In this document: positions 2,307 to 38,413 of the stretch, in pieces
Position numbering within the stretch: position 1 is the stretch's first letter
Layout of the letters: every line of letters starts with the position of its first letter
Assembly (NCBI RefSeq): GCF_030704305.1
Contig: NZ_CP131935.1
Coordinates: 806,001-870,000, forward strand
DNA: 64,000 nt
Direction of reading: 5' to 3'
Source: Massilia sp. R2A-15
GTDB taxonomy: Bacteria; Pseudomonadota; Gammaproteobacteria; Burkholderiales; Burkholderiaceae_D
Position numbers and translations under genes: made by a program
The notes under the pieces: model-generated
What the model was told of the DNA's origin: nothing
Databases searched by the model: none
The model's input: the letters and a program-made list of their open reading frames with translations, nothing else

Positions 2307-4205
<1,899 letters not shown>

Positions 4206-4233
4206 GCCACGCTGAAAACATTGGAGGATCCCG

Positions 4234-4950: not shown

Positions 4951-5120
4951 CAGGAGGGAGGCAGCGGATTGATCATTTGGACATTGACACAATCCGCTGA
5001 GTTCCCGACCGGCCCGACTCTTTTTCCTTCTCCCTCACCGCATTCGGCGGAGCGCCCCGCTGCGGCCGCAGCGGCAGCCGCCAGCGCGTCCGCGTCCAGC
5101 GGAAACTTGAGGGGGATACC

Positions 5121-6221
5121 ATGAAAAAAGCACTGATCACCGGCATCACGGGGCAGGATGGTTCCTATCTGGCCGAGTTCCTGCTGGAAAAAGGCTACGA
5201 GGTGCACGGCCTGCGGCGCCGCGCCTCGCTGCTCAACACCGGGCGCATCGACCATCTGCGCGGAAACGCCGGCTTCCACGTCCATCATGGCGACCTGAGC
5301 GACACGTCCAACCTGACCCGCATCCTGCAGCTGGTCCAGCCCGACGAGGTCTACAACCTGGGCGCGATGAGCCACGTGGCGGTGTCGTTCGAGTCGCCCG
5401 AGTACACGGCCGACGTCGATGGCGTCGGGGCCGTGCGCCTGCTCGAGGCGATCCGCTGCCTCGGGCTCGGCGCCACCACCCGCTACTACCAGGCGTCGAC
5501 GTCCGAGCTGTACGGGTTGGTGCGGGAAACCCCGCAGCGCGAAACCACGCCGTTCTATCCGCGCAGCCCGTACGCGGCGGCCAAGCTGTACGCCTACTGG
5601 ATCACGGTCAATTACCGCGAAGCCTACGGCATGTACGCCTGCAACGGCATCCTGTTCAATCACGAGTCGCCGCGCCGCGGCGAAACCTTCGTCACCCGCA
5701 AGGTCACGCGCGCGCTGGCGAACATCGCGCTGGGCCTCGAGCAGCGACTGTTGCTGGGCAACCTGGACGCGCTGCGCGACTGGGGCCACGCGCGCGACTA
5801 CGTCGAGATGCAATGGCTGATGCTGCAGCAGGACCAGGCCGACGATTTCGTCATCGCCACCGGCCGCCAGTACTCAGTGCGCCACTTCGTCGACATCGCC
5901 GCGCGCGAACTGGGGATGGAAATCGCATGGCATGGCAGCGGCGTCGATGAGCACGGCGTCATCGCTTCCATCATGGGGGACCGATGCCGCGGCGCGCGTG
6001 TGGGCCAGGCCATCGTCGCCGTCGACCCGCGGTTCTTCCGGCCGACCGAGGTAGATACCTTGCTGGGCGACGCCGGCAAGGCGCGGGCGCGGCTTGGCTG
6101 GACGCCGCGGACCAGCTTCGAGTCGATGGTGAAGGAAATGGTGGCGCACGATCTGGACCGCGCGCGCCGCCACAAGCTGCTGCAGGCGAACGGCTACGAC
6201 GTCGCCATTTCACTGGAGTGA
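5121..6221 (+). CDS. gmd: GDP-mannose 4,6-dehydratase
   Basis: A 366-residue SDR-fold enzyme converting GDP-mannose to GDP-4-keto-6-deoxy-mannose, the precursor of GDP-fucose, GDP-rhamnose or GDP-perosamine. It has the N-terminal nucleotide-binding motif [14 protein letters not shown], the [13 protein letters not shown] segment, catalytic Ser-Glu in TSELYG, and the YxxxK pair in YAAAKLY. The conserved [15 protein letters not shown] region typical of Gmd is intact. The ATG is preceded by GAGGGGG. With manC (which makes GDP-mannose) 6 kb downstream it forms the sugar-nucleotide supply of this cluster. No partner reductase or epimerase to finish a deoxy sugar is encoded in the window. Confidence 0.94.
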
Positions 6222-6300: not shown

Positions 6301-7509
6301 ATGAAGATTCTGATGGTGTCCGAAGACCTGCCCGGCGAACAGATCGGCGGATTGGGCAAGCACGTGGTCACGCTGTCGAACGCCTTGCTGGCGCGCGGCC
6401 ACGAGGTCGCCATCCTCGGCCGCAGTTTCAGTGGCGCCGCCGCCGATGGCAGCGCGCGCCAGATCGGTTTCAATGGCCGCTTCATCCCGGGATTCGATTT
6501 CGCGCATCCCGGATGGAAGGAGACGCAGCTCGGCGTGTTCAATCCGCTCAAGCGGCCCTGGTTCGCGCGCAAGATCGCCCGTGCGATCGCCACGCATGCC
6601 GCCGGCTTCGACGTGGTGCACTACCACGGCCACCTGCCGATGGTGGCGCTGCACGTCGACCGGGCGCTCAACTTCATCCAGACGCGCCACGACCAGGGCA
6701 GCGAATGCATCACCCACCTGCGCTTTCGCGACGGCGTCGTGTGCGCCGCGGCCTCCGCGCGCGCCTGCGCCGGCTGCATCCATCCGGCGCCCGGCCCGCT
6801 GCGCGAGCACGTCTCGGCGCTGGCGGTGACGCGCTACCGGCGCGACGCGGCGGAGGCGTTCCGTCGCCACAAGACCATTTTCGTGTCCGATTTCCTGCGC
6901 CGCCAGTTCCTGCGCCAGATTCCCGGCGCCGACCTGGCGCGAAGCCGCGTCATCCACAACTTCGTTGATTATTCGATGCTGGCGAATTGCGCGCAGGCGC
7001 CGCGCGCCGGGCAAGTGCTGCTGGCCGGGCGCATCGATGCCGGGAAGGGCTTCGGCGAATTCCTGGCCGCGGCGCGCGGGCGCATGCCGCCGGACGCGCG
7101 CCTGCTGGTCGTCGGCGACGGCGCGGAACGCGCCGCGCTCGAAGAGCGCTACGCCAGCCGGCAAGTGCGCTTCCTCGGCTGGCGGCCGCACCGGGAAGTG
7201 CTCGCGCTGACCGCCCGCAGCCATGTCTGCGTCGTGCCGTCGCGGTGGGAAGAGCCATGCGGCACCACCGTGCTCGAAGCGCTGGCGCTGGGACGGCCCT
7301 GCGTCGCACTGGCGCGCGGGGGCACGCCCGAACTGGCCGCCTACCAGCTCCACGCCGGCCAGCTGCAACTGGGCGGGTCGATGGACCGGCTGGTCGCCAT
7401 GCTGTGCGAGCGGCTCGCGCGGCCGCCGGCGGCGCAGCCGCTGCCTCCCGCGGCCGCGCTCGATGTGATCCATGCGGTGCCGAAGATCCTCGACTACTAC
7501 GCCGAATAA
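6301..7509 (+). CDS. Glycosyltransferase family 4
   Basis: A 402-residue GT-B fold protein that probably adds one sugar to a lipid-linked or growing surface polysaccharide at the inner membrane. The N-terminal acceptor domain opens with MKILMVSEDLPGEQIGGLGKHV, whose GGxGxHV is typical of GT4 enzymes. The C-terminal donor domain has LLAGRIDAGKGFGEFL and the E-x7-E-type motif in EEPCGTTVLEALALG. A cysteine cluster (C-x6-C-x2-C) lies near residue 145. The sugar specificity cannot be read from sequence. It lies 79 bases after gmd and in the same direction, so it may use the GDP sugar made there. Confidence 0.88.
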   Translation: MKILMVSEDLPGEQIGGLGKHVVTLSNALLARGHEVAILGRSFSGAAADGSARQIGFNGRFIPGFDFAHPGWKETQLGVFNPLKRPWFARKIARAIATHAAGFDVVHYHGHLPMVALHVDRALNFIQTRHDQGSECITHLRFRDGVVCAAASARACAGCIHPAPGPLREHVSALAVTRYRRDAAEAFRRHKTIFVSDFLRRQFLRQIPGADLARSRVIHNFVDYSMLANCAQAPRAGQVLLAGRIDAGKGFGEFLAAARGRMPPDARLLVVGDGAERAALEERYASRQVRFLGWRPHREVLALTARSHVCVVPSRWEEPCGTTVLEALALGRPCVALARGGTPELAAYQLHAGQLQLGGSMDRLVAMLCERLARPPAAQPLPPAAALDVIHAVPKILDYYAE

Positions 7510-7621
7510 GCCCGCAGTGCGGGCGCCCAGCCGATCACCCTGAACGGATCAAGGTCGCCCTACGCGGCCGGTGCTACGCTTTCAAGGTCGGGTCCGCCGG
7601 ATCCGATCCCGGGAGGCGGCC

Positions 7622-7771
7622 ATGCGGCAGGTAATCCTGATCCACGCGCACAAGAACCTGGACCAGCTCAGCGCGCTGGTGGTCCGCATGGCGGACGACG
7701 AGTTCCTGACCTGTCTCAACCCCGCCGCCGGCGGCGCGCCGCGGCTCCGGCGCGAAGCGTGCGCGCCATGA
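7622..7771 (+). pseudogene. Remnant of a core-2/I-branching type glycosyltransferase (GT14) gene
   Basis: A 49-codon frame opens after a strong ribosome binding site (GGGAGG) with MRQVILIHAHKNLDQLSALV, which looks like the extreme N-terminus of bacterial GT14 beta-1,6-N-acetylglucosaminyltransferase-like proteins (usual form: ILAHK or IHAHK followed by xxQLxxLI). After about 33 residues the similarity stops and the frame runs through low-complexity GC-rich sequence to a stop. That stop overlaps the ATG of the next gene by 4 bases. A full protein of this family is around 300 residues, so this is best read as a gene reduced to its 5' end. It may still be translated as a short leader coupled to the next gene. 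Confidence 0.55.
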
Positions 7772-9966
7772 AGCGCATCGCCTTCATCGTCCGCGACCCT
7801 TTGCCGCCGACCCGGGCCGACGTGGCGACGCTGTTCGGCGCCGAACTGCCGCGCCACGGCATCGACAGCGAATTGATCGGGCAGGGGAAGACCCGCAGCG
7901 TGCTGGCGCTTGCTGCGAGCCCTTTGCGGGACGCGCTTGGCCTGTGGCGCGCGCGCCGCGTCGACGGCATCCAGGTGCGCGACAAGATCGCCAGCGGCGT
8001 GCTGGCCCGCGTCGCCGCCGCGATCCTCGGCGTCCCGTTCGTCTACTGGATGTCGTTCCCGGTCGTCGAAGGCTTCGAGGCGCGGCGCGACGAGATTGGC
8101 CGCGCCGGCCGCGGCCCGCGCTGGGCTGCCCATGCGCTGCGCGCGCGTGTGGCGCGGCTGGTGCTGTACCGGCTGGTGCTGCCTGGCGCGCGCCACGTGT
8201 TCGTGCAGAGCGACGCGATGGCGTCATGGCTGGCCGGGCAGGGCGTGCCGCGCGCGCGCATGAGCGCGGTGCCGATGGGCGTGGACGCGGCGCTGTTCGA
8301 GCGCGCGGCCATCGAGCCGGCGCGCGATCCGCGCCTGGACGGGCGCCGCGTCATCCTCTACCTGGGCCGCGTCTCGCAGTCGCGCCAGTCGGGCTTCCTG
8401 CTCGACGTGGTCGAAGCGCTGCGCCGCGGCATACCCGGCATCCTGCTGGTGATTGCCGGCGACGCGTCATCGTCGGCCGACATGGCGTGGATGCGCGGCC
8501 TGATCGGGGAGCGCCGCCTCGGTGAGCATGTGGTGCTGACCGGCTGGCTGCCGCAGCGAAAAGCGCTCCGCTACGCGGTGCGGGCGGAAGTCGCCCTGTC
8601 GCCGCTCCCGCGCGGCACGCTGTTCGACGGTTCGTCGCCGGCGAAGCTGATGGAATACCTTGCGCTCGGCATTCCCTGCGTGGCCAGCGACATCCCCGAC
8701 CAGGCACTGGCGATCGAGCAGAGCGGGGCGGGCGTGCTCGCGCCCATGTTGCCCGGCCCCTTCAGCGAAGCCGTGCGCGCGCTGCTCGACGATCCCGCGC
8801 AGCGCGCGCGCCTGGCCAAACTGGGGCCGCCGTGGGTTGCGCGCCACCGCACCTACGCCATCCTCGGCGCACAGGTGGCCGAGACCTACGAGCGCATCCT
8901 GCCGGAGGTGCCGCGCGTGCTGATGATCGGCACGGCGCCGGGCGGGCGCGGCGGCATCGCTTCGGTGGTCGGCGTGCTGCGCGCCGGCGGCCTGTTCGAG
9001 CGCGCGGCGGTGCGCTACGTGGTGTCGCACCGCGCGGGCGCGCACCACGTCGGCGCGCGCGCCGCGCTCTCCGCATTCTTGAGCACCGTTGCCGCCTGCC
9101 TGCGCCGGCGGCCGGAAGTGGTGCACGTCCACTCGGCCACGCGCGCCAGCTTTGCGCGCAAATCGCTGCTACTGCTGCTCGCGCGCGCGGCCGGCTGCCG
9201 TACCATCTTCCATTTGCACGGCGCCCAGTTCGGCCGCTTTGCCGCGACCGGGGCCTGGGCGCCGATGCGCTGGTGGATTCGCCGCACGCTCGAGCGCAGC
9301 ACCGCCGTGATCGCGCTGTCGGACCGCTGGGCAGCATTCGTGCGCGGCTACGCGCCGGCCGCGCGCGTGGTCGTGGTGCCCAACGCGGTCGCGCTGCCGG
9401 CAAGCGCCGACCGCAGCCGCGAGGAGCGCGGCCGCATCCTGTTCCTCGGCCGCGCCGACGCCGGCAAGGGCGTGTTCGACCTGCTCGCGGCGGTGGCGCT
9501 GCTGGCGCCGGCGCTGCCGCATATCCGGCTGGTGATCGGCGGCGCCGGCCAGCTGGCGCTGCTGCGCCGGCGCGCGGAAGAACTTGGCATCGGCGCGCGC
9601 GTGATCTTGCCGGGCTGGCTGGACGCGCGCGCCAGGGAGCGCGAGATGGCGCGCGCGCAGGTGTTCTGCCTGCCGTCGCACGCGGAGGGGCTGCCGATGG
9701 CGATGCTCGAAGCCATGGCCGCGGGAAAAGCGATCGTGGCCAGCGCCGTCGGCGGCGTCCCCGACGCGATTGCCGACGGCGCCAACGGCGTGCTGGTGGC
9801 GCCGCGCGACCCAGCCGCGCTGGCGGCGGCGCTCGGCAAGCTGCTGGCCAGCCGGGCGCTGCGCGAGTGCATGGGCGACGCGGCCAGCGCCACCGTGCGC
9901 GAACGCTTCAGCGCCGAAGGCGCGGTCGGCGCCTTGAGCGCGCTGTACCGGGAGCTTGGGGCCTGA
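7768..9966 (+). CDS. Two-domain fused glycosyltransferase (GT4-GT4)
   Basis: A protein of 732 residues from the ATG at 7768 (a GTG at 7759 would add three). It contains two complete GT-B glycosyltransferases in tandem. The first (about 1-375) has YLGRVSQSRQSGFLLDVVEA and SSPAKLMEYLALGIPCVASD. The second (about 380-732) begins PRVLMIGTAPGGRGGIASV and has FLGRADAGKGVFDLL plus the donor motif SHAEGLPMAMLEAMAAGKAI. Most GT4 proteins are half this length. The fusion suggests two consecutive sugar additions by one polypeptide. The start overlaps the stop of the preceding GT14 remnant. Specificity is unknown. Confidence 0.88.
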   Translation: MKRIAFIVRDPLPPTRADVATLFGAELPRHGIDSELIGQGKTRSVLALAASPLRDALGLWRARRVDGIQVRDKIASGVLARVAAAILGVPFVYWMSFPVVEGFEARRDEIGRAGRGPRWAAHALRARVARLVLYRLVLPGARHVFVQSDAMASWLAGQGVPRARMSAVPMGVDAALFERAAIEPARDPRLDGRRVILYLGRVSQSRQSGFLLDVVEALRRGIPGILLVIAGDASSSADMAWMRGLIGERRLGEHVVLTGWLPQRKALRYAVRAEVALSPLPRGTLFDGSSPAKLMEYLALGIPCVASDIPDQALAIEQSGAGVLAPMLPGPFSEAVRALLDDPAQRARLAKLGPPWVARHRTYAILGAQVAETYERILPEVPRVLMIGTAPGGRGGIASVVGVLRAGGLFERAAVRYVVSHRAGAHHVGARAALSAFLSTVAACLRRRPEVVHVHSATRASFARKSLLLLLARAAGCRTIFHLHGAQFGRFAATGAWAPMRWWIRRTLERSTAVIALSDRWAAFVRGYAPAARVVVVPNAVALPASADRSREERGRILFLGRADAGKGVFDLLAAVALLAPALPHIRLVIGGAGQLALLRRRAEELGIGARVILPGWLDARAREREMARAQVFCLPSHAEGLPMAMLEAMAAGKAIVASAVGGVPDAIADGANGVLVAPRDPAALAAALGKLLASRALRECMGDAASATVRERFSAEGAVGALSALYRELGA

Positions 9967-13899: not shown

Positions 13900-16062
13900 T
13901 CAAACCGGTCGCACGGATTTCTCGGACTCCGCCATTTGACGCGGAGCGATTCCGGTGCCAGCCGTGACATCAACGAATTTTCCTTGCTCAAGCCGGACGA
14001 TACGATCGGCAATTGCGATAGTCTGTGGGCGGTGGGCGATCATGATCCGGGTGATATCGAGCGCCGCGATTGCCTCGCCTATCATGGCTTCGTTCCCAAC
14101 GTCCAGCTGGCTCGTGGCCTCGTCGAGGAGCAGGATTTTCGGGCGTCGATACAGAGCGCGCGCCAGCAGTACCCGTTGTTTCTGGCCACCCGATAGTACC
14201 GAACCCATGTCTCCAACGAGCGTTTGGTAGCCCATCGGCATCTGGACGATTTCATCATGGATGCAAGCGGACCGGGCGCAGGCGTGAAGCCATTCAGTGT
14301 CGGGTTTCGGATCGAGAAACGCGATATTGTCGTACACCGAACCAGCGAAAAGATGGTCGTCTTGCATGACCGTCGCGACCACGTTTCGGTAATTTTGCAG
14401 CCCCAGCTGCGCGACCGAAAGACCGCCAAGGTGAATTTTCCCCTTTTCCGGTTTGAGAATACCGAGGATGAGTTTCAAATAAGTCGTCTTGCCACAGCCC
14501 GAAGGCCCGATGATCGCCACGCACTCGCCCGGCTTTACCTTCAGCGTGGCACCGTTCAACAGCAGGGCATCGTCCGCCGCGTATCGAAAGCTCACATCTT
14601 CCAGCGCAAGGGTCAGATCGTCGGACGGTTCACGCCGGTGGGCGATGTTGCGTTCTTCCGGCGCGGTGAGAACAATGTCCGCCAGCCGTTCGGCCGAAAT
14701 ACCGAGCATCTTGAATTCAACGACGCTGTCGATCAGGCGATTGATCCGGCCGGCGAACTGCTCCTTGTAGCTCAGGAAGGCAAACAGCATTCCAAGCGAC
14801 ATCCGGTGATCTATCACGGCCACCGCGCCCAGCCAGAATACAAAGGCGCGCTCCACAGAAGAGATGAAAGACCAGCTGGTTCCGAATAGCAAGCTGAGCT
14901 TTTGCATGACCAGGCCGGCATTGGTGGCATCGACCCACAGATTCAGCCACGCAGTGCGGCGCTCGCGCTCCCGATTGCACATCTTGATCGTGCGAACCCC
15001 GCGTACCGTTTCAAGAAAGAAGGTTTGTTCCTTTGCCTGCTTTGCGATCATGCCGGTCGCCGCTGTTCTCTCGGCACTGTAGCGCAGCCACCGCAGGGTG
15101 CCGTACAGGCTCACCGCTCCCACTGTCACACCTGCCAGGGCCGGAGCGTAAAGCACCATCATGACAAGGGTTCCGATCGCCAGCAAGCCGTCGAGGGCGG
15201 CTTCAATGGCGGCATTCGTCAGTCCATGTTCAATCGATTTTACGGCGCCGAATCGTGACACGATGTCGCCTACGTGGCGTCGCTCGAAATATTCGACGGG
15301 CAGTTTCATCATGCGCCCCATTACGTTGGACATCCACTGCATGTTGAAGCGAGCGCTGATATACATACCGATGTAGGAGCGTACCGCTCCAATCACGGCG
15401 GTCGACAGCCCGATCGCGACCATGCCGAAGCCGAGCACCGTCAAAAGGTCGCGATCTCCGCCGACGATGGCTTCATCGGTGATCCACTGAGTCAGGATCG
15501 GCAGGGCCAGAGCCAACACTTCGATCACGAGTGCCAAACCCAATAGCTGCGCCAACCCTCGCTTGAGTCCGACGACCTTGCCGATCAACGCCTTCAATTC
15601 GATCGCGGGAGGCGGCGCCTTGCGCCTGAACGCCATGCCAGGCTCAAGTTCTATTGCGATGCCGGTGAAGTGGTCTGAAACGGTCTTGAGACGCAGTTTC
15701 AGGGCGCCGATCGCCGGATCGTGAATGTAGGCCCATCCCCCTGTGAGGGTGTGGAGGACGACAAAATGGTTGAGGTTCCAGTGCAAGATGGCGGGCAGCT
15801 GTAACTGCGACAATTCGGCCAGTTCAAGTTGCAATGGCCGGCACGCCATTCCCATCTGGTCTGTCACCTCGGCGATGTGGGCGACGGTGGCGCCCTTTAG
15901 CGAAACCGGATAACGCTTGCGCATTTCGGCGACATCGGTTTCGTGGCCGTGGTAGGAGGCGACCATTGCAATGCACGCCAGGGAACATTCCGCCGCCTCG
16001 GTTTGCATTAACACCGGCACGCGCTGGCTCCAGCCGAGTTTCAGGTCCTTGACCAGATTCAT
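13900..16062 (-). CDS. C39-peptidase ABC exporter (microcin V/CvaB type)
   Basis: A 720-residue inner-membrane exporter. Residues about 15-140 form a C39 cysteine peptidase with Cys26 (AAECSLAC), His99 (LNHFVVLH) and Asp115 (IHDPA), which cleaves double-glycine leaders during export. A six-helix ABC permease follows, then an ATPase with GPSGCGKTT, LSGGQKQR and ILLLDEATS. All catalytic residues are present, so it should process substrates rather than only transport them. The start was placed at 16062 because the family begins about here and the upstream frame runs through the adaptor gene. It lies 19 bases after the HlyD adaptor and on the same strand as the glycine-rich precursor. An outer-membrane partner is not in this operon, but a TolC homologue is encoded at 24598. 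Confidence 0.92.
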   Translation of the reverse strand: MNLVKDLKLGWSQRVPVLMQTEAAECSLACIAMVASYHGHETDVAEMRKRYPVSLKGATVAHIAEVTDQMGMACRPLQLELAELSQLQLPAILHWNLNHFVVLHTLTGGWAYIHDPAIGALKLRLKTVSDHFTGIAIELEPGMAFRRKAPPPAIELKALIGKVVGLKRGLAQLLGLALVIEVLALALPILTQWITDEAIVGGDRDLLTVLGFGMVAIGLSTAVIGAVRSYIGMYISARFNMQWMSNVMGRMMKLPVEYFERRHVGDIVSRFGAVKSIEHGLTNAAIEAALDGLLAIGTLVMMVLYAPALAGVTVGAVSLYGTLRWLRYSAERTAATGMIAKQAKEQTFFLETVRGVRTIKMCNRERERRTAWLNLWVDATNAGLVMQKLSLLFGTSWSFISSVERAFVFWLGAVAVIDHRMSLGMLFAFLSYKEQFAGRINRLIDSVVEFKMLGISAERLADIVLTAPEERNIAHRREPSDDLTLALEDVSFRYAADDALLLNGATLKVKPGECVAIIGPSGCGKTTYLKLILGILKPEKGKIHLGGLSVAQLGLQNYRNVVATVMQDDHLFAGSVYDNIAFLDPKPDTEWLHACARSACIHDEIVQMPMGYQTLVGDMGSVLSGGQKQRVLLARALYRRPKILLLDEATSQLDVGNEAMIGEAIAALDITRIMIAHRPQTIAIADRIVRLEQGKFVDVTAGTGIAPRQMAESEKSVRPV

Positions 16063-16081
16063 GATCTTGCCTTTTCGGGAT

Positions 16082-17350
16082 TCAGCCGCGGCGGAGGCTG
16101 TACAGCGGTTCCAACACCCATTCGTAGATCCGGCGGGTATCGAGCTGGACTTCGGCGTCGAGCTGCATGCCTGGCCGCAATCGTTGCTGGCTTCCGTAGG
16201 CGTCGATGAGCTGCTTGTCCAGCTGGACCCGCACGGTGTACATCGGCTCGCCGGTTTCCGTGCTGGTCGCAAGGCGCGTGCCAGCCGAACTCTCCGATGC
16301 GCGCACAGGGCTGTCGGCAATCGACATCACTTTGCCCTCGGCCACCCCAAATTTTTGGTAAGGAAAGGCATCGAGCTTTAGTTTGACCGCTTGACCGGGC
16401 TTGAGGAATCCCAGCGCTCTGCTCGGCGCATACAGGATCGCCTGCAGCTTGCTGTTGCTCGGCACAACAGTGACTAGCGGAACGCCGATGGCTGCGTTCT
16501 GGTGGTGAGAAATCGTGAGCGACGACACGGCGCCGTCGCACGGCGCAAGCACCGACCATTCATGATTGTTTTGCTGCTTGCTCAATTCCGACTCAGTGGT
16601 GGAAATGCTTCTACTAAGCTGGGCCTCGGCCACTTGTTCGCGTAGCGGACTGTTTTCCAGTTCGAGCGTCAGCCGCGCGATATCGGCGTCGGCGCTGGTC
16701 GCCTGCTTTTGCAAACCTTGCAGGCGCATTTGCTGATCCATCAGTTCATCGATTTTCTGCTGCGTCTGCATGGCGGGCATGAAGCCGGATTTTTGCAGCG
16801 ACTTGAAGCGCGCAACCATCCGTTCCGCCGACTTTACCCGCGCTGCCTGCGTTTGCGTTTCGCTGCGCAACGTGGCGCGATTGCGCTGCGCAGCATCAAG
16901 ATCCCGGCGCATCGTTGCCACGCTTGCCACATGCAGCTTCGCGGTGCCGCCAAGCTCTTGGCGAAGTGCTGCTAGTTGTTCGGTCAATTTGGCGTCGAGT
17001 CCCACTTCGATGGCCTTACCGTCTGCGCCAACGTGCTCCGATTCGAATATGAGCAAGACCTGCCCTTTTCGCACTTGTTGGCCCTCCTGGACGCGCAACG
17101 TTTTCAGGGTGCCGCCTTGCGGGGCATAAAGTTTGACCACGCCCTCGCTCGGCTCGAGTACGCCCGATATGCTGGCGTGCCGGGTATATTTACCGACGTA
17201 CGCAAAGGAGCAAAGTGCCGTCAGCAGGGCAGTAGCCAATGCCACTATAAAATAGTTCGAAACTGGATAGACCAACAGCACGTCGCCGAAAGCGCGCTTG
17301 CCGTCGGAATCGAGGACTTCTGCCCGAAATACACTTTGGCCGGACGCCAT
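16082..17350 (-). CDS. HlyD-family membrane fusion protein of the C39 exporter (CvaA-like)
   Basis: A 422-residue periplasmic adaptor linking the ABC exporter to an outer-membrane channel. One membrane segment near residues 30-50 (YFIVALATALLTALCSFAYV) is followed by a lipoyl half (LYAPQGGTLKTLRVQEGQQV), a long alpha-helical hairpin rich in Gln/Ala/Lys (about 105-265), and the second lipoyl half (WSVLAPCDGAVSSL). The start at 17350 was chosen over an ATG 36 bases upstream because TAGGAGAG sits at ideal distance and the upstream codon falls inside a terminator hairpin. It is followed by the exporter after 19 bases. Confidence 0.9.
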   Translation of the reverse strand: MASGQSVFRAEVLDSDGKRAFGDVLLVYPVSNYFIVALATALLTALCSFAYVGKYTRHASISGVLEPSEGVVKLYAPQGGTLKTLRVQEGQQVRKGQVLLIFESEHVGADGKAIEVGLDAKLTEQLAALRQELGGTAKLHVASVATMRRDLDAAQRNRATLRSETQTQAARVKSAERMVARFKSLQKSGFMPAMQTQQKIDELMDQQMRLQGLQKQATSADADIARLTLELENSPLREQVAEAQLSRSISTTESELSKQQNNHEWSVLAPCDGAVSSLTISHHQNAAIGVPLVTVVPSNSKLQAILYAPSRALGFLKPGQAVKLKLDAFPYQKFGVAEGKVMSIADSPVRASESSAGTRLATSTETGEPMYTVRVQLDKQLIDAYGSQQRLRPGMQLDAEVQLDTRRIYEWVLEPLYSLRRG

Positions 17351-17380
17351 AAGTTTCTCTCCTACACGCGCTGGAATAAG

Positions 17381-17408
17381 TGTCAAAAAGGCGTTCGCCT
17401 TTTTGACA
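17381..17408. terminator. Bidirectional hairpin between precursor and export genes
   Basis: A perfect 12-bp stem (TGTCAAAAAGGC with GCCTTTTTGACA) and a 4-base loop. The A and T tracts flanking the GC core make it terminator-like in both directions. It lies between the precursor gene (17482) and the HlyD gene, so it could lower exporter transcription relative to the precursor. Confidence 0.65.
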
Positions 17409-17481
17409 AGAAACAGGTTGGAGCGTCAGGGCCGCGCGGTCCAGCCCCAAGTGCTACAGCTCATGGCGCAAATGGCGAACA

Positions 17482-18006
17482 TCAGCAGATTTCCGCGTTA
17501 TATTCATCGAGACCATCACCGCCGCCGCCAACGCCGCCGCCAAAGCCGCCGCCCGCGCCGCCGCTTTCGCCTCCAGCCCATGCGCCCCCATCACCCCAAC
17601 CAGCGCTGTCTCCCCAGCCATCGCTACCGAAGTCGGCAAAACCCTCGAAGACGGAACCGTCCGAGGTGTCGCTGCTCGTCGGGGTGATCGTTGTATCCTT
17701 TTTTGTCTCACATTCGAGGTTCGGCTTGCACGTCTTGGTCTCGGTCGTAGTTTTGATGACATCGACGCCTGCGTCCAACCCGACCATCCGTTTGACCAGT
17801 CCTGTTATGCCTATTGACGCGTGCACTACGGTGATGTCAACCGTAGTGGTCACGGAATTGCCGTTGGCTAATTGGCAGAGCTGCGACGAACTCGACACAT
17901 CGATATCCCGCGACTTGATGTGTGTCGGCACCGCTGGCGCACACACCATACCCGTCGTTCCGCCGCCAGCGACGAAATCCCACTTCGCATGTTCCAAACT
18001 TCTCAT
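17482..18006 (-). CDS. Double-glycine-leader precursor, glycine-rich (candidate microcin-like secreted protein)
   Basis: A 174-residue protein. Its first 15 residues, MRSLEHAKWDFVAGG, match the microcin V leader in length and at the positions that matter (Met1, Arg2, Leu4, Asp10, Val12, Gly14-Gly15). The predicted mature part is about 159 residues. It has a Val/Thr/Ser-rich first half, five cysteines (VCAP, LCQL, TCKP, ECET and the C-terminal residue), then an acidic, Gly/Trp/Asp-rich tail ending EYNAEIC. GGAG lies 7 bases before the ATG. No family is recognised for the mature part. Cleavage and export by the C39 exporter encoded just downstream is inferred from leader and context. It is much longer than classic class II microcins and could be an adhesin or other surface protein instead of an antibacterial. 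Confidence 0.7.
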   Translation of the reverse strand: MRSLEHAKWDFVAGGGTTGMVCAPAVPTHIKSRDIDVSSSSQLCQLANGNSVTTTVDITVVHASIGITGLVKRMVGLDAGVDVIKTTTETKTCKPNLECETKKDTTITPTSSDTSDGSVFEGFADFGSDGWGDSAGWGDGGAWAGGESGGAGGGFGGGVGGGGDGLDEYNAEIC

Positions 18007-18119
18007 ATCATTTCTCCATGGTTGAGGTCAAAAGGTTTGCGCAATGGCATGCGCGATATCGCTAACGTGGCCGCCCGCGGCACCACGCTCAAACGATTCG
18101 TTGGTGAATCACATTCGGC

Positions 18120-19145
18120 TCACTTGACCACGCTTATCGTGAAACCCGTCTTCTCCAGACGCAAGAGCAATCCGTCACATCGTTTCTTGTCGTTCGGCGC
18201 CGGTTGGAATACGTGCGCCATTCCCAAGGCATAAAATCTAATCCCACCGCCCAGGTTTTGCTTCATCTTGGCCAACCACTTGTCGTTACGGTCACACACG
18301 ATCGGGGCATCGCCATAACCGGCCAGTGCGTCGACCAGAACACCGTTCAATTGCTTGTCGCGCACCGCATCGACGAAGCCCTCATCCATGCGCACGAGCT
18401 CATTTTTCGATGGAGGCGCGAACTTCGTCGGATCAAGCAATGCGAGCCACCGCTGCAAATAGCGGGGCCGATCTTTCCCTAGGCCGCAATAGGCATTGAC
18501 CAAGTCGTATTTCTCGTCGATCGACGCATTTGCCTTTTTGCCATCCTTTTGCCGGCGATACGCGATGTAGCGGGCGATTTCTGGTCGAGACGCGTAGCCG
18601 GCATCCGCCTTCGGCAGTCTTTCGGGATGTGATTCTTGGGTTTTGGTCAGATACGAGCCCATTGCAATGATTAACCCGTATTCGGACAAGTCACGCGTGA
18701 GACTGTGCGCGAAAATACGGGATGCTTCGCGCGCCTGCAGACGGTCGTTCTCGGTGTCGCCCGGCATTGCGGCGGCAGGCGGGATAATATTTAACAGTGC
18801 CCGCGCCACATCCGCGTGCGCTTTTCCAAGGATTTCGCGGTTTTCCGTAGTGTCGGCGAAAGGTATCGGACACGCTGGCGCGTCGGCCGGCAGCATGCCC
18901 GACGATTCATGCAAAAATAGATCCGCTTGCATTGCGATAGGTACGACCGTCCTGTAGAAATAGTCGTCGTGTTCGGCCGCCAGACCGTTGTGGGTCACCG
19001 GCAGAATATAGAATTTTCCTGTTACGCCTTGTTCATTTTTCCCGGTGACTTCCCACAGCCTGGGCGGCGCTTCTGCAGCATTTGCAGCCACGCAAAATCC
19101 GACAATTGCAAACGTGTTGAGCACCGTTCTAGAAGTGAGATTCAT
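18120..19145 (-). CDS. TraB/GumN (Tiki-like) family secreted protein
   Basis: A 341-residue protein with a clear signal peptide (MNLTSRTVLNTFAIVGFCVA to ANAAEA), so it is probably periplasmic. After it comes the TraB/GumN pattern: FYILPVTHNG near the start (a His in place of the usual G[TS]xH), several acidic residues in ADLFLHE, and the closing FYALGMAHV motif. Members related to Tiki are metal-dependent proteases, while most bacterial members have no known function. The start at 19145 was chosen because the signal peptide begins there. It lies 113 bases upstream of the double-glycine precursor on the same strand, so co-expression is possible. A role in immunity or maturation would be speculation. 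Confidence 0.7.
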   Translation of the reverse strand: MNLTSRTVLNTFAIVGFCVAANAAEAPPRLWEVTGKNEQGVTGKFYILPVTHNGLAAEHDDYFYRTVVPIAMQADLFLHESSGMLPADAPACPIPFADTTENREILGKAHADVARALLNIIPPAAAMPGDTENDRLQAREASRIFAHSLTRDLSEYGLIIAMGSYLTKTQESHPERLPKADAGYASRPEIARYIAYRRQKDGKKANASIDEKYDLVNAYCGLGKDRPRYLQRWLALLDPTKFAPPSKNELVRMDEGFVDAVRDKQLNGVLVDALAGYGDAPIVCDRNDKWLAKMKQNLGGGIRFYALGMAHVFQPAPNDKKRCDGLLLRLEKTGFTISVVK

Positions 19146-19483
19146 TCTGTACCTACGCTGGTTCGTTCGAAAAATTACCATGGTGCATTGCCGCTCTACC
19201 ATTTAATGCCAATGCGATAATGATGCAAGCAAGTTAATTTGTGTTGACAATTCGCAATGATAAGGTGGAAAGAAGCGCAAGCGGGACCCTTGCTTGAAAT
19301 GCATCAGGGATGCGTGGTCCGGCCAGCTGCGCCCAGCTGTTTTTTGCCTAGTTGGGTAACGAAACAGTTGGACGGAGGACGCCTATCTCCGGATGTGACA
19401 CTACGCAATCCTCAGCAACATTTCGTTGGCATTTCCACAATTCCGGGCGCTTAATGAGCGATCTCCTTTTTTCGGAAATCGCC
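19146..19483. other. Divergent intergenic region
   Basis: Separates the minus-strand TraB/GumN gene from the plus-strand transglutaminase-like gene and must hold promoters for both. A TTGACA occurs at 19244-19249 but has no convincing -10 at the right distance. No RNA gene or small protein was recognised. Confidence 0.5.
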
Positions 19484-21310
19484 ATGCGCTCAACCCCATT
19501 CAGCTTGCTTTCCCTGCTTCTCGCAACTGCCGGCTCGGCATTGTTCTTCGCTGCGCAGGCCGCGGTGCCGGATCCCTCGGCGACAATTGAAAAAGACCAG
19601 CGAACTTATCTGATCAATCCCAACGGCACGGCGGCGATGACGCGCGACCTGGCGATTCGGATTAACAGTGCGCCGGCGATCGCCAAGTTCGCCAATCAGG
19701 CCTTCGATTACAACGCCACGCTGGAAACGCTCGATATCGTCGGCGCCTATACCGAAAAGCCCGATGGCCGCAGGGTGCCCGTACCGCCCGACCGTATCCG
19801 TGAACAGCAGGCGCAAGGTTCGCGCGATACGACCCTGTTCGCGGACGAACGCATCAAGGTCGCGATCTTCCCGCAGGTGGAAGTCGGCGACCGGCTGGTG
19901 ATGCAGATTCGGCAGAACCAGATCGCAGCCCTGATTCCGGGCCAATTCCAGGACATCGTCATGCCGCCGGAGCAGGCGGCGCCCCAGCAGCGATTGATTT
20001 ATGACCTGCCGGCGGGCATGGCCTTGTATGCCGACGCGCGCGGCTACGTCGCAAGGCCGGTTGACGCGGCGCCTGGGCGCAAGCGCTACCAGTACGAATA
20101 TGCAGAGCACGATCGCGCCGAGCACGAACGTGGCGCGGTATCCCCGCTCGACGTCGCCGACCGGCTGGTTGTGTCGACCATGGCCGACTACGCAGCGCTG
20201 GCCGCCGCGTATGAACGTGGCGCCCAGGGCAAGGCGGCCGTCTCGCCTGCGATCCGCGCGCTTGAACAAAGCATCACGCAGGGCGCCGATGGGCCGCGCG
20301 CGAAGGCGCTGCTGTTGGCCGACTGGGTGCGCAAGCATATCCGCTACGTGGCGGTCTATATTGGCCACGGCGGCGTCGTCCCGCATTCAGCTGATGAAGT
20401 TCTGGAGCAGCGTTATGGCGACTGCAAGGACCACGCGACCCTGCTCGAGGCGCTGCTCGCATCGGCCGGTATCGACAGCACGCCTGCGCTGATCAGTTCG
20501 GGCAGCGCATTCACGCTGCCTTCGGTCGCGGCGGTTGGCGTGCTCAATCACGTGATCACCTATGTGCCGAGCCTGGACCTGTTCGTCGACGCGACGGCAG
20601 AGAAAGTCGCCGCTGGCTTTCTGCCGCAAGCGGACCTGGACAAGCAGGTGGTGCTGACGAAAACGGGAGCACTGGCCCGCACGCCCGCGCGGCAAAAGAC
20701 CAAGGTGCTGGTCGAATCGAGATTCGTGATCGACGCGCACGGCGATTACAAGATTGTTCGCACCACCACCGCGCAGGGTGCGGCCGCCGAGCATTACCGG
20801 CGTCGCGACCCCGATGCGGGCCCGCACAGGTCAGAGGAAACGACCGTGGTCGAGCCGGGCATGATCGATGGTGGGGGGGACGAGTACGTGTACAAGGAAA
20901 CAATTCGCGGCAAATCGCCGTCACCAGATCAGAAACATATCGACCTGTGGGCGGAACAGGCAGCCGGGCCCGCTATCTCGTGGCTTGTGACGACCCGAGA
21001 CATGGTCGCAGAGAAATCGCGCATTCATCCGTATCCGTGCGCGGCGGAGGAAATCGAACAGCGCACGCACATTCGGGTTCCCGCCAGATTTCGGCTTGCC
21101 AAGCTGCCGCCGCCCGTGGCGCTGAAGACGGCGCAGTTTGACTACAACGCCGAATACCTGCGCGAAGGGCAGGCCATCTTGGTTCACCAACGCTACCATG
21201 CGCATCCAACGCGTGCCTTTTGCACGCCGGACGAGGCGAAGGCGCGGCAAGCGCTGTGGGGGGAGATGATGATGGACACGGTGCAATTGATGCGATTCGC
21301 GAAGCAGTAG
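19484..21310 (+). CDS. DUF3857 / transglutaminase-like secreted protein
   Basis: A 608-residue exported protein. A signal peptide (SLLSLLLATAGSALFFAAQA) precedes a DUF3857-type beta-sandwich (about 30-235), then a transglutaminase-like cysteine domain with Cys in RYGDCKDHATLLEALL, His in LNHVITYV and Asp in FVDAT, the expected triad order. A C-terminal beta domain ends the protein. The start at 19484 places the signal peptide at the N-terminus; an ATG at 19454 in the same frame is less likely. Proteins of this layout are periplasmic and mostly uncharacterised. It stands alone between the microcin-like module and the type I secretion genes. Confidence 0.85.
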   Translation: MRSTPFSLLSLLLATAGSALFFAAQAAVPDPSATIEKDQRTYLINPNGTAAMTRDLAIRINSAPAIAKFANQAFDYNATLETLDIVGAYTEKPDGRRVPVPPDRIREQQAQGSRDTTLFADERIKVAIFPQVEVGDRLVMQIRQNQIAALIPGQFQDIVMPPEQAAPQQRLIYDLPAGMALYADARGYVARPVDAAPGRKRYQYEYAEHDRAEHERGAVSPLDVADRLVVSTMADYAALAAAYERGAQGKAAVSPAIRALEQSITQGADGPRAKALLLADWVRKHIRYVAVYIGHGGVVPHSADEVLEQRYGDCKDHATLLEALLASAGIDSTPALISSGSAFTLPSVAAVGVLNHVITYVPSLDLFVDATAEKVAAGFLPQADLDKQVVLTKTGALARTPARQKTKVLVESRFVIDAHGDYKIVRTTTAQGAAAEHYRRRDPDAGPHRSEETTVVEPGMIDGGGDEYVYKETIRGKSPSPDQKHIDLWAEQAAGPAISWLVTTRDMVAEKSRIHPYPCAAEEIEQRTHIRVPARFRLAKLPPPVALKTAQFDYNAEYLREGQAILVHQRYHAHPTRAFCTPDEAKARQALWGEMMMDTVQLMRFAKQ

Positions 21311-21471: not shown

Positions 21472-23238
21472 ATGAAATCAAAAAATTCTTCCGTCAAGAA
21501 CGAAATTGAATTGACGCTGGCGTCGTTCAAGCGCGTCTTCTTTACCGTCGGCGCATTTTCGGCGATCAGTAATCTGCTCATGCTGGTGCCATCCCTCTAC
21601 ATGCTGCAGGTGTACGACCGGGTGCTGGCCAGCCGCAATGAGATTACCTTGCTGATGCTCACCTTGATGATGCTCGGCGCCTACTTGCTGATGAGTGCTC
21701 TGGAGGTGGTGCGCACTTTCGTGCTGGTGCGGGTGGGCGCCCAGTTCGACATGCGCCTCAACAAGCGGGTGTACACCGCCGCATTCGAACAGAATTTGAA
21801 GAAATCCGGCGGCAACGCCGGCCAGGCGCTGGCCGACCTGACCACTGTCCGTCAATTTCTCACCGGTAACGCGTTGTTCGCATTTTTCGACGCACCGTGG
21901 TTCCCGGTGTATTTGATCGTTATTTTCCTGTTCGAGCCCGCGCTCGGCTTGTTTGCCCTGACCGGCACCGCCGTGCTGGTGAGCCTGGCGTTCATCAACG
22001 AAAAAGTGACCAAGGCGCCGCTGGCCGAAGCCAATGCAATGGCGATCGCCTCGACCACGCTGGCGACGAACAACCTGCGCAACGCCGAAGTCATCGAATC
22101 GATGGGCATGCTGCCCAATCTGCTGGCGCGCTGGTTCAAACTGCATGGCAAATTCCTGCACCTGCAGGCCGAGGCGAGCGAAAAAGGCGGCATGGTCGGC
22201 GCCGTCACGAAATTTGTCCAGGTATCGCTGCAGTCGCTGGTTCTCGGCTTTGGCGCGCTGCTGGTCATCGAGGGCAAGATCACCCCCGGCATGATGATCG
22301 CCGCGTCGATCCTGGTCGGGCGCGCGCTGGCGCCGGTGCAGCAGGTGATCGGCGTGTGGAAAAGCTACAGCAGCACGCGCAGCGCCTATGAGCGCCTGGT
22401 GACGCTGCTGGCGGCCAATCCGGCGCGTCCCGCGGGCATGGCATTGCCCAAGCCGCTGGGCGCGCTCACGGTCGAAGGCGTCACCGCCGCGCCGCCGGGT
22501 TCCGCCACTCCCGTGATCAAGGGCCTGAATATCGCCATCGCCGCCGGCGACGTGGTCGGCGTCATCGGCCCGAGCGGCTCGGGCAAATCGACGCTGGCGC
22601 GGCTGCTGGTGGGCGTCTGGTCCGCGCAAGTGGGCAAGGTACGCCTCGACGGCGCCGATATCTATTCCTGGAACAAGGCCGAGCTGGGCCCGCATATCGG
22701 CTACCTGCCGCAGGATATCGAGCTGTTTGCCGGCTCGGTCAGCGACAACATCGCCCGCTTCGGCGAGGTCGATCCGGCGCGTGTGGTGGAGGCGGCCAAG
22801 CGCGCCGGCGTGCACGACATGATCCTGCACTTTGCGCAAGGCTACGACACCGTACTCGGCGACGGCGGAGCCGGCCTGTCCGGCGGCCAGCGCCAGCGCC
22901 TCGGCCTGGCGCGCGCGATGTACGGCGACCCGTCGGTGCTGGTACTCGACGAGCCGAACTCGAACCTGGACGACGTCGGCGAGCAGGCGCTGGTGCAGGC
23001 GCTGAGCGAACTGCGCCAGCGCGGCAAGACCATCATCCTGATCACCCATCGCACCAGCGCGGTCGGCGTGACCAACAAGCTGCTGTTGCTGCGCGACGGC
23101 GTCGCCGAGATGTTCGGGCCGACGAAGCAGGTGCTGGCGGCGCTGCAGGAAGCGGGCCAGAAACAGGCGCAGGCGCAGTCGGCGCAACAGGCACAGCGGG
23201 CCCGGGCCGCGGCGGCAGTCACTACTGAACAGGAATGA
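21472..23238 (+). CDS. Type I secretion ABC transporter (permease/ATPase)
   Basis: A 588-residue PrtD/HasD-type exporter without a C39 domain, which suits substrates with C-terminal secretion signals. The N-terminal permease has about six membrane helices ([11 protein letters not shown] is a hallmark). The ATPase has [17 protein letters not shown] and [14 protein letters not shown] Gln/Ala-rich tail ends the protein. The ATG at 21472 is followed by the usual N-terminal sequence of the family. Its stop overlaps the next gene (ATGA). Together with the adaptor and TolC protein downstream it makes a complete type I system, and an RTX substrate is encoded 3.6 kb downstream. Confidence 0.93.
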
Positions 23239-24596
23239 ACATGAAGCTCCTGAAAAAAGAACCGGCGACCGAAGTCGTTGCGCATGATGTGGAGCCGCTG
23301 ACGGTCGATACCGATGCGGGCGCCTACAGCAAGTTCGGATGGTGGATCGTGCTGCTCGGCGTGGGCAGCTTCCTGCTGTGGGCATTCTGGGCGCCGCTCG
23401 ACAAGGGCGTGCCGCTGACCGGCACGGTGGCCAAGGAAAGCAACCGCCAGGCGGTGCAGCACCTGGCCGGCGGCACGGTGGACGCGATCCTGGTGCGCGA
23501 GGGAGACAACGTCAAGGCCGGCCAGGTGCTGGTGCGCATGAACGGCGTGCAGGCCAGGTCGCAGTCCGACATCACCCGCGCCCAGTACTTCAATGCGCGC
23601 GGCGCCGAGGCGCGGCTGCGCGCCGAACTGGAAGGTCGGAAGACCATCACGCCGCCGGCCGCGCTGGCGCCGTACAAGGCCGATCCGCGCGTGGCGCCGG
23701 TGATGGCGCTGCAGGCGCAGCTGATGGCGTCGCGCCAGATGGCGCTGCAAAACGAACTGGCCGCGATGGACGAAAATATCGCCGGCCTGAAGATCCAGAC
23801 CCAGGGCCTGCAGGAATCGCGCGACAGCAAGAAGCAGCAGCTGGCGATCTTGAAGGAGCAGCTCGACAACATGCGCGACCTGGCCAGGGACGGCTATGTG
23901 GCGCGTTCGCGGCTGCTGGACGTCGAGCGCACCTGGGTGCAGACCAGCGGGATGCTGTCCGAGGACATCGGCAACATCGGCCGCGCCCAGCGCCAGGTGA
24001 TGGAGCTGAGCCTGCGCCGCGCCCAGCGCATCCAGGACTACCAGAAGGAAGTGCGCGCCACGCTGGCCGACACCGAACGCGAAGCCGAGGCGCTCGGCGC
24101 GCGCATGACGGCGCTCGATTACGAGCTGGCCAACGCCGACGTCAAGGCGCCGGTGGACGGCACCGTCGTCGGCCTGAACATCTTCACCCGCGGCGGCGTG
24201 GTCGGCCCTGGCTTCCGGATGATGGACCTGGTGCCGACCGACGATCCGCTGATCGTCGAGGGCCAGCTGCCTGTGAACCTGATCGACAAGGTGCACGCCG
24301 GCCTGCCGGTCGACCTGATCTTCTCGGCCTTCAATGCCAACAAGACGCCGCACATTCCCGGCGTGGTGACGCAGGTGTCGGCCGACCGTACCGTGGACGA
24401 GCGCACCGGCGCCGCCTACTACCGCATGAAAGCGAAAGTGACGCCGGCCGGCGCGCGGCTGATCGCCGCGCAGAAGCTCGACATCCGCTCCGGCATGCCG
24501 GTCGAACTGTTCGTCAAGACCGGCGAGCGCACGATGATGAGCTACCTGCTAAAGCCGGTGTTCGACCGCGCCAAGACGTCGATGTCGGAGGAATAG
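23235..24596 (+). CDS. Type I secretion membrane fusion protein (HlyD/PrtE)
   Basis: A 453-residue periplasmic adaptor. One membrane helix ([20 protein letters not shown]) near residue 40 is followed by [20 protein letters not shown], the first lipoyl half. A long helical hairpin (about 105-290), the second lipoyl half ([14 protein letters not shown]), and a beta-barrel region with the conserved [14 protein letters not shown] segment complete it. The first ATG overlaps the ABC stop codon; an alternative ATG lies two codons later at 23241 and is nearly equal. Confidence 0.93.
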
Positions 24597-24597
24597 C

Positions 24598-25950
24598 GTG
24601 AGCATCGCTTTGAAGAACAGGACGCCGTTCGCGCTGCGGACAGCGGCGGCGCTGGCGTTGACGGCGTGGTGCGCGGGGGCCGGCGCGGTGACCTTCGCCG
24701 AGGCGTATCAAGCCGCGCTGCGCAACGATCCGACCTACCGGATGAACTACTACGAGAACGAATACAGCAAGGAGAACGCGGTGATCGGGCGCGCGGGCCT
24801 GCTGCCTAACGTGAGCGCCACCTATCAGGCCAGCCGCAACCGGGTCGACCTGACCGCTCCGGACTTGCTGGGGCGTGCGAAGTTGACGCAGCCCGAATAC
24901 ATCAGCCGTTCGGCCGCGGTGCAGCTGCGCCAGCCGCTGCTGAACCTCGAAGCGGTCGCGCTCTACCGCCAGAGCAAGGTGCAGGCCGAAGCGGGCGAGG
25001 CGCAGTACCGGACCCGCGGCGGCGAAGTCGTGCTGCGCGTGGCCGGCGCCTACCTCGGCGCGCTGCTGTCGGGCGATGCGCTGGCGCTGGCCCAGGCGCA
25101 GCGCGACATGTACGTCGAGCAGGCCAAAGTCAACCAGCGCCTGTTCGAAAAGGGCGAGGGCACCCGCACCGACATGCTCGAGACGCAGGCGCGGCTGGAC
25201 CAGGCCGAGGCACAGGTGCTCGAAGCGCAGGATGCGCTGGCAACCGACCGCAACGCGCTGGCGGCGGTCATCGGCATGGACCCGGGCGTGCTTCAGCCGC
25301 TGGCGCCGACCTTCCATTTTTCGCCGCTGTCGCCGGCCGGTTTCGACGACTGGAAAGCGATCGCGCTGGCCAATAATCCGGACCTGGCCGCGGCGCGGCT
25401 GATGGTGGAGGCGGGGCGGCTGGAAGTGCAGAAGGCGCAGGCCCGGCACGCGCCGCGCATCGACCTGGTGGCGACCTATTCGAAGAACGACGCGGAGACG
25501 GTCAACACCTACAACCAGAACAGCGTCAACCGCGCCATCGGGGTGCAGATGAACGTGCCGCTGTACGCGGGCGGGCAGGTCAGCGCGATGGTGCGCCAGG
25601 CGGTGGACGGCTACGAGCGCGCCAGGGCGGACCTGCAGGCGCGCACCGACAAGGTGGTGATCGAACTGCGCAAGGCGCACAGCATGGCGGTGAGCAGCGT
25701 GGCGCGCATCGCCGCGCTCGACAAGGCGGTGGCGTCGGCCCAGTTGCTGATCAAGGCGACCGAGCAGAGCATCAAGGGCGGCGTGCGCATCAATCTCGAC
25801 CTGCTCAACGCGCAGCAGCAGCTGACCGGGGTGCAGCGCGATCTGGCGCAGGCCCGCTACGGCTACCTGGTGGCGCAGCTGCGCCTGCGCGCGGCGGCGG
25901 GCACGCTGTCGGCGGCCGATGTGGGCGAAGTGGCCAGCTACTTCCGCTGA
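24598..25950 (+). CDS. Type I secretion outer-membrane channel, TolC family
   Basis: A 450-residue outer-membrane efflux protein starting with GTG one base after the adaptor gene. It has a signal peptide (ALALTAWCAGAGAVT) and two repeated halves of helical and strand segments. TolC-like motifs include YQAALRNDPTYR, QPLLNLEAVALY and the second-half repeat NVPLYAGGQVSAMV followed by LDLLNAQQQL. It completes the export channel of the type I system. It could also serve the C39 exporter, whose operon lacks an outer-membrane component. A strong terminator follows. Confidence 0.92.
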   Translation: MSIALKNRTPFALRTAAALALTAWCAGAGAVTFAEAYQAALRNDPTYRMNYYENEYSKENAVIGRAGLLPNVSATYQASRNRVDLTAPDLLGRAKLTQPEYISRSAAVQLRQPLLNLEAVALYRQSKVQAEAGEAQYRTRGGEVVLRVAGAYLGALLSGDALALAQAQRDMYVEQAKVNQRLFEKGEGTRTDMLETQARLDQAEAQVLEAQDALATDRNALAAVIGMDPGVLQPLAPTFHFSPLSPAGFDDWKAIALANNPDLAAARLMVEAGRLEVQKAQARHAPRIDLVATYSKNDAETVNTYNQNSVNRAIGVQMNVPLYAGGQVSAMVRQAVDGYERARADLQARTDKVVIELRKAHSMAVSSVARIAALDKAVASAQLLIKATEQSIKGGVRINLDLLNAQQQLTGVQRDLAQARYGYLVAQLRLRAAAGTLSAADVGEVASYFR

Positions 25951-25971
25951 AGGTGACAAGGCGCGCACAAG

Positions 25972-26008
25972 AAAAAAACCGGAGCAGAGAATGCTCCGGT
26001 TTTTTTTC
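25972..26008 (+). terminator. Rho-independent terminator after the type I secretion operon
   Basis: Stem ACCGGAGCA / TGCTCCGGT with a short loop, an A tract before and eight T residues after. It can act in both directions and separates the secretion genes from their downstream putative substrates. Confidence 0.88.
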
Positions 26009-26418
26009 GGCGTTTGAATGGGCGCCCACTATGCAAAATCTTGCATAAATTCTCTCGAAAAACCACGAATTGATCCGAACGGACTAAGCCTTGGTCACAC
26101 AGCGGTCATCGTCGGCAATTAGTATCACTTTTGCCATAAATCAATATGTTTTGTTAGCTACACCACTCATATTGCGTGAAATATAACGAATGACACATTC
26201 ATGCCTATTTAGCACGGCTTTTTCGCAACAGTTAGTGCATTTATTTTAAGAAACTTTTATCAAAAGAATTTATCTTTTCATAGGGAAAAAACAAATTTAG
26301 TCGGATTTCATCTGAATTCATTAACGAAATCGAATTTGCGTTTAGCTCAGCGGCTAATGCATATTGACCCGCGGAAGCACCGGCTTTCCGAGGCGAAAAA
26401 CAACGAAGAGGCTCAGGT
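26009..26418. other. AT-rich leader upstream of the PHP/Ig-like gene
   Basis: About 400 bases that are strikingly AT-rich compared with both neighbours. It has A and T tracts between 26220 and 26340 and no open frame of note. It probably contains the promoter and regulatory sites of the two large secreted-protein genes downstream. No precise promoter could be assigned, and a sigma-54 pattern was looked for and not found. Confidence 0.55.
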
Positions 26419-29517: not shown

Positions 29518-29528
29518 GGAAAACCACC

Positions 29529-38371: not shown

Positions 38372-38413
38372 TTCGCCGCCGCTTCCATCCGATTACCTCA
38401 TTCGAGAAGACAC

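Follow-up and report, generated by a model that had tools for sequence, protein, structure and literature searches.

Organization of the Locus

Three genes lie one after the other on the minus strand of the window (the whole stretch of 64,000 nucleotides analyzed here), in the order precursor, hlyD, C39 exporter. The first (17482..18006), which runs from the ATG at 18006 to the stop at 17482, encodes a protein of 174 amino acids representing the putative cargo. It is followed, after 131 bp, by the gene for a HlyD-type adaptor (16082..17350; HlyD_3, E 2e-16), whose start fits best at the ATG at 17350, with GGAGA ahead of it, and then by the gene (13900..16062, ATG at 16062) for a C39 peptidase-containing ABC exporter of 720 amino acids. 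Coordinates, strand, and domains bear out the sequence-only reading, according to which three same-strand genes form a double-glycine export unit. The spacer between precursor and hlyD embeds, on the same strand, a 12-bp hairpin (17381..17408; −17.3 kcal/mol, z −5.5), whose stability was equaled in 0 of 200 shuffles; it was not among the elements listed by the consensus scan. This hairpin might be terminator- or attenuator-like and may reduce the expression of adaptor and exporter relative to that of the cargo.

The exporter joins in one chain the domains Peptidase_C39 (E 5.5e-31), ABC_membrane (1.1e-35), and ABC_tran (1.1e-31), all scoring above the Pfam cut-offs. Its C39 domain aligns with the solved structure 6mpz (E 9.7e-22), Gln20, Cys26, His99, and Asp115 all finding their counterparts, so that the Cys, His, and Asp previously read from the letters are confirmed; residues 17–702 align with 4ry2, a bacteriocin transporter of solved structure (E 2.7e-80). 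Judged from its domains, the catalytic Cys/His/Asp, and the oxyanion Gln, the protein is predicted to be a peptidase-containing ABC transporter (C39 PCAT). Since it does not reach the curated cut-off of any NCBIfam exporter subfamily shown, and since the adaptor reaches 144.8 bits against TIGR01843, under the curated cut-off of 208.65, neither of the two proteins receives a subfamily name. A match to the exporter at E 1e-60 or less was found in 137 of the 195 genomes of the host family, and one at 1e-225 or less in 27 of 392 genomes. The same genome harbors a second C39 exporter (locus L072, C1:717000-732000, at 6511-8559; 46% identity) with its own hlyD (3904-5121); an ORF located between these two genes (5146-5814) is Gly/Trp-rich and shows VAGG near its N-terminus.

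The Leader and the Precursor

The N-terminus of the precursor reads MRSLEHAKWDFVAGG|GTTG. The first 15 residues (17962..18006, minus strand) resemble a double-glycine leader, as they end in G14-G15 and carry hydrophobic residues at −12 (L4), −7 (W9), and −4 (V12). As the sequence-only reading had it, this leader has the length of the microcin V leader, which is given as MRTLTLNELDSVSGG in PMC10231218, and shares with it 7 of 15 positions (M1, R2, L4, D10, V12, G14, and G15). Residue −8 is a Lys, where most relatives have Glu. When the ORFs of the window encoding 40–350 amino acids behind a ribosome-site-like motif were scanned, a loose double-glycine pattern matched two of them in 64 kb, the precursor among them; a stricter pattern, requiring an acidic residue at −8, matched none, the precursor being left out because of its Lys. 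The predicted leader thus matches above chance expectation.

The mature part of the precursor would consist of 159 residues, 19.5% of which are glycine, with a pI of 4.2. According to the AlphaFold model, residues 20–113 form beta strands with a pLDDT of about 80 (below 50 at residues 66–79), and the leader and the tail remain below 50. This predicted beta-rich domain (17668..17949, minus strand) includes Cys22, Cys44, Cys93, and Cys99, and is followed by a tail (17485..17667, minus strand) that is Gly-rich, but Trp/Asp-rich as well. Foldseek returned no significant solved relative of the beta domain, its best rows starting at E 0.056 with a gasdermin pore; similarly, the precursor found no credible family in Pfam (best Trp_halogenase, E 0.092) or in PHROGs (best phrog_13141, E 0.023), and no match in NCBIfam.

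The criteria for class II microcins given in PMC11494933 include a leader of 15–18 residues ending in GG or GA, hydrophobic residues at −4, −7, and −12, a glycine content of 12–26%, a gene close to a PCAT gene, and a size below 150 residues. The window precursor agrees with these in its leader, its hydrophobic positions, its glycine content (19.5%), and its adjacent exporter, and it exceeds the size limit both as a precursor (174 amino acids) and as a mature protein (159). No small membrane protein or immunity gene was recognized among the ORFs of 60 amino acids and above. For these two reasons, size and the immunity gene, we refrain from classing the cargo with the class II microcins.

A Precursor Family with Exchangeable Tails

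A search of 5.8 billion proteins with the precursor retrieved two relatives besides itself, a profile built from the first relatives enlarged the list to eleven, and the family now comprises 20 proteins, the window copy included, with precursors of 151–315 residues. They share a common plan, in which a double-glycine leader precedes a beta-rich domain with four cysteines and the tails then diverge. Cys22, Cys44, Cys93, and Cys99 are present in 20, 20, 19, and 19 of the 20 members, which suggests disulfides in the cargo. Homologues lacking the leader would have spoken against the sequence-only reading, by its own account, and this is not what we observed: the Gly-Gly is aligned in all 20 members, with the caveats that P0003 has a shorter start, that the leader of P0020 deviates, and that the leader profile used in the comparison included the window leader itself. 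Moreover, among the members found via their Hint domain alone, and thus independently of the leader, eight out of nine possess it. The precursor is a real, conserved gene.

This family is rare across the sets of genomes searched (392, 17, 74, and 399). The single-sequence search at E 1 or less gave matches in 15 of 60 genomes, i.e., the window and weak matches at E 0.013 or more. Profile A2 matched 4 of 392 genomes, namely, the window and three others at E 0.0026–0.0087, which we took as chance, and profile A3 matched in 0 of 17, 0 of 74, and 1 of 399 genomes, the one being the window itself. No precursor relative was confirmed by pattern scans of genome contigs and viral contigs, nor was any found among plasmids by tblastn with P0002. 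A member of the family beside a C39 exporter was observed in one genome, that of the window.

This single linkage, together with the atypical residue at −8 and the fact that cleavage itself is argued from analogy, might lead one to suspect that the likeness of the leader is coincidental and that the exporter serves some other substrate. We regard this as very improbable, as the leader is kept across the precursor family in spite of the diverging tails, the precursor adjoins the exporter and has the same composition, and among the window ORFs none fits the stricter leader pattern and just one other fits the loose one. The large precursor remains, in our view, the probable substrate of the adjacent export unit, and the earlier claim of a complete double-glycine export unit is supported.

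A Hint domain (intein/hedgehog fold) makes up the tail in 11 of the 20 members, and the structure model of P0012 shows a Hint fold in this position; the window precursor has no Hint domain, and its Gly/Trp/Asp-rich tail stands in its place. Five Hint-type proteins scanned against Pfam gave no match. A histidine in block B is a mark of active inteins, and in what we take to be this block (CSxxHP) it is missing: the motif occurs in 0 of 129 proteins, and a variant with A-P is found in 118 of the 129. Among proteins P0012–P0129, which carry this Hint-fold domain, the longer ones have varied N-termini, and two of them (P0034 and P0040) contain PF14891. A leader pattern was found in 27 of the 118 newly listed Hint proteins, about 8 of which resemble other N-termini by eye, versus 6 of 417 internal Met controls. 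Hint-domain matches were also found in five of the searched genomes (loci L140–L144). The Hint ORFs of L140, L142, L143, and L144 have a different N-terminus, with no double-glycine leader by eye; the exporter query retrieved ABC parts at three of the five loci (lacking the C39 part, with 31% identity over 537 residues at best) and had no match at the other two, so these loci do not link Hint cargo with a C39 exporter.

These tails bear on the idea that the cargo is a true antibacterial bacteriocin, either a class II microcin of excessive size or a contact killer of the Cdz type, whose immunity protein went unrecognized. The leader, the glycine content, and the neighboring exporter fit such a protein, and short Gly-rich double-glycine ORFs do occur at some related exporter loci; however, the precursor exceeds the microcin-like size, no small immunity gene was recognized, and half of the precursor family ends in a Hint domain, which to our knowledge is not a known microcin trait. 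We therefore consider a bacteriocin unlikely. Applied to the cargo, the label microcin-V-like given from the letters goes too far: the protein is oversize, no immunity gene was recognized for it, and its family is a distinct one in which tails are swapped and often consist of a Hint domain.

Related Exporter Loci

We read 48 loci with related exporters above 40% identity, leaving out rows below 40% (L073) and L074 (no hit); the set is biased toward close kin, since it consists mostly of the best-ranked exporters. A hlyD match starts upstream of the exporter, at a distance of no more than about 3.2 kb, in 45 of the 48 loci; at L081 the match is partial and lies 5.2–5.6 kb away, and none was found in the stretches read for L078 and L083. 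At L068, L078, and L081, the C39 exporter shows a stop within the aligned stretch, which may reflect a broken gene or an overrun of the alignment. An ORF with a strict leader lies within 3 kb of the exporter in 28 of the 48 loci, and such ORFs number 36 per 438 kb near exporters versus 7 per 264 kb farther away, although at least two of the 36 near matches are false by eye (L055, inside hlyD, and L125 at +2703) and the strict pattern missed candidate leader ORFs in L123 and L125.

In the exporter tree, the window falls in a five-member clade (100% SH-aLRT) with L052 (genome G065, 71% identity), L123, L124, and L125. A double-glycine ORF lies ahead of hlyD in L124 and L125, and one is found there on the opposite strand in L123; at an E threshold of 0.01, the precursor profile has no match in any of the three genomes. 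In G065, the nearest relative, the contig extends about 260 bp beyond hlyD on its upstream side and breaks off within the 3' end of an ORF. The presence, in the same clade, of exporters accompanied by double-glycine ORFs not detectably related to the precursor suggests that the machine stays and the cargo changes.

Genomic Setting and Possible Companions

The GC3 is 66–71% in the module and 63–74% over the five genes at 13900-21310, versus 85–92% in the 13 flanking genes measured. Four other genomes of the genus possess both manC and its upstream neighbor, and in the stretches read beside manC (19, 19, 5.8, and 6 kb) nothing matches the module or its companions; in G003, sequence matching the luxR-type gene at window position 35732 starts about 320 bp beyond manC. 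The low GC3 and the absence beside manC in the stretches read point to an acquired island, which would make its position amid polysaccharide and type I secretion genes incidental. The same two observations speak against the module being part of a polysaccharide or type I cluster, so that the setting to which the sequence-only reading attached a meaning is not supported as a unit. Beyond the island, the window contains a PrtD-type type I secretion set (21475-33911; ABC, HlyD, and TolC, the TolC homologue at 24598-25950), followed by a 1032-aa protein with Ig-like domains and a 1460-aa RTX protein with an exo/endonuclease/phosphatase domain, as well as a PEP-CTERM protein adjoining a 1060-aa subtilase (37649-41596).

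Two possible companions share the low GC3. An orphan gene upstream of the precursor (18120..19145, minus strand; GC3 62.8%) was searched for in 40 genomes and matched in none but its own, and it gave no Pfam match at E 10 or less; its assignment to TraB/PrgY/GumN was discarded, since at E 1 or less PF01963 matched at three other places of the genome and not here. The other (19484..21310, plus strand; GC3 74.4%), identified through Pfam, is a DUF3857/transglutaminase-like gene, for which a role as maturation partner is hinted at. A relative of this gene lies near the exporter of L124 (11585-13318), one locus among those searched (L116 is the same place).

This recurrence, the low GC3 common to gene and module, the Gly-rich acidic tail, and the pI of 4.2 of the mature part would suit a secreted surface or matrix protein, with a beta domain and a Gly/Trp/Asp tail that serve to construct or decorate the cell surface, and with the DUF3857/transglutaminase-like protein perhaps joining or trimming it. 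We find such a role rather improbable, as the pairing with an exporter was seen at a single locus among those searched, and as rarity and tail swapping point to conflict and not to housekeeping.

Proposed Mechanism and Its Meaning

C39 exporters bind the leader of their substrate, cut after the double glycine, and export the product in one step. We consider it likely that the locus is a horizontally acquired export module whose precursor is cut after Gly15 and exported; cleavage and export at this site, taken by themselves, are very likely by analogy with what is established for C39 exporters. The exporter would recognize the cytosolic precursor by its 15-residue leader, the C39 domain would cleave after Gly15, and the ABC core would pass the remaining 159 residues to the outside by way of the HlyD adaptor and a TolC-type channel; the TolC homologue of the window might act as the channel, and another TolC could serve as well. 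The cysteine-bearing beta domain would fold outside the cell and might represent the constant part, the C-terminal tail being the exchangeable, working part; in the members that carry a Hint domain, this domain may undergo self-processing once exported.

What is observed is the order of the genes, the catalytic residues, the conservation of the leader, the modular family, and the island signature. The export-module explanation is supported by the maintenance of the leader while tails diverge, by the catalytic residues in place, and by the HlyD genes near exporters, as well as by the greater density of strict leader ORFs near exporters, the clade with changing cargo, the shared low GC3, and the Hint fold. 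Against it we count the Lys at −8, the single-genome linkage, the shortfall in NCBIfam scores, the rarity of the family, and the length of the cargo. The last is a real difficulty: according to PMC10231218, the microcin V machine exported a 116-residue test cargo much less well than a 66-residue one, and its preferred cargo is proposed to be about 88 to 116 residues long; the cargo here would measure 159.

As for function, we tentatively propose competition with other bacteria, acting at or near the cell surface; it is favored over a surface role because of patchiness and tail swapping. A somewhat more speculative possibility is that a constant leader and Cys beta domain carrying exchangeable C-terminal modules form a polymorphic system of secreted effectors that relies on microcin-type exporters and in which, in many members, a Hint module matures after export, in series with the one-step exporter on the same cargo. 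Microcin-type exporters are regarded as peptide machines, and a family of 151–315-residue precursors with conserved cysteines and exchangeable tails would widen their cargo range. Such a family would further suggest a swap-in scheme for secreted proteins, searchable elsewhere, and a possible new use of intein-like domains.

Comparison with Known Systems

Screens for double-glycine peptides and their transporters in Gram-negative bacteria have reportedly been carried out since Dirix 2004. Exact-term searches of the open-access literature returned no matching cargo family and no paper joining double-glycine, Burkholderiales, and bacteriocin, or Hint domain, double-glycine, and secretion, or intein and peptidase-containing ABC transporter. 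As far as these searches reach, novelty lies in the precursor family and in its connection to Hint domains, and the module is a variant among the known peptidase-containing ABC exporter systems.

The microcin V system (CvaA/CvaB with TolC) likewise combines an adaptor with a C39 exporter bearing a Cys-His-Asp triad, given for CvaB as Cys32, His105, and Asp121 in PMC3335142, and the leaders of the two systems agree in length and in almost half of their positions; by analogy, the module might work as that of microcin V does. Unlike the 88 residues of microcin V, the window cargo would have 159 in its mature form, with a cysteine-bearing beta domain and an exchangeable tail, and no immunity gene was recognized near it. 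PCAT1 (4ry2) and LahT (6mpz), with which the exporter and its C39 domain align, differ from the window system, which has a HlyD adaptor, another cargo, and a genome placed among Gram-negative relatives. The contact-dependent killing system Cdz of Caulobacter is similar in its type I secretion of bacteriocin-like proteins; as described in PMC5380434, it relies on a pair of small proteins (86 and 84 residues) that bear glycine zippers, and its immunity protein has three helices, whereas in the window a single 174-residue precursor takes the place of the pair and no immunity protein was recognized. Lastly, Hint domains, known from inteins, bacterial intein-like domains, and hedgehog proteins, are shared with the tails of the relatives and not with the window precursor.
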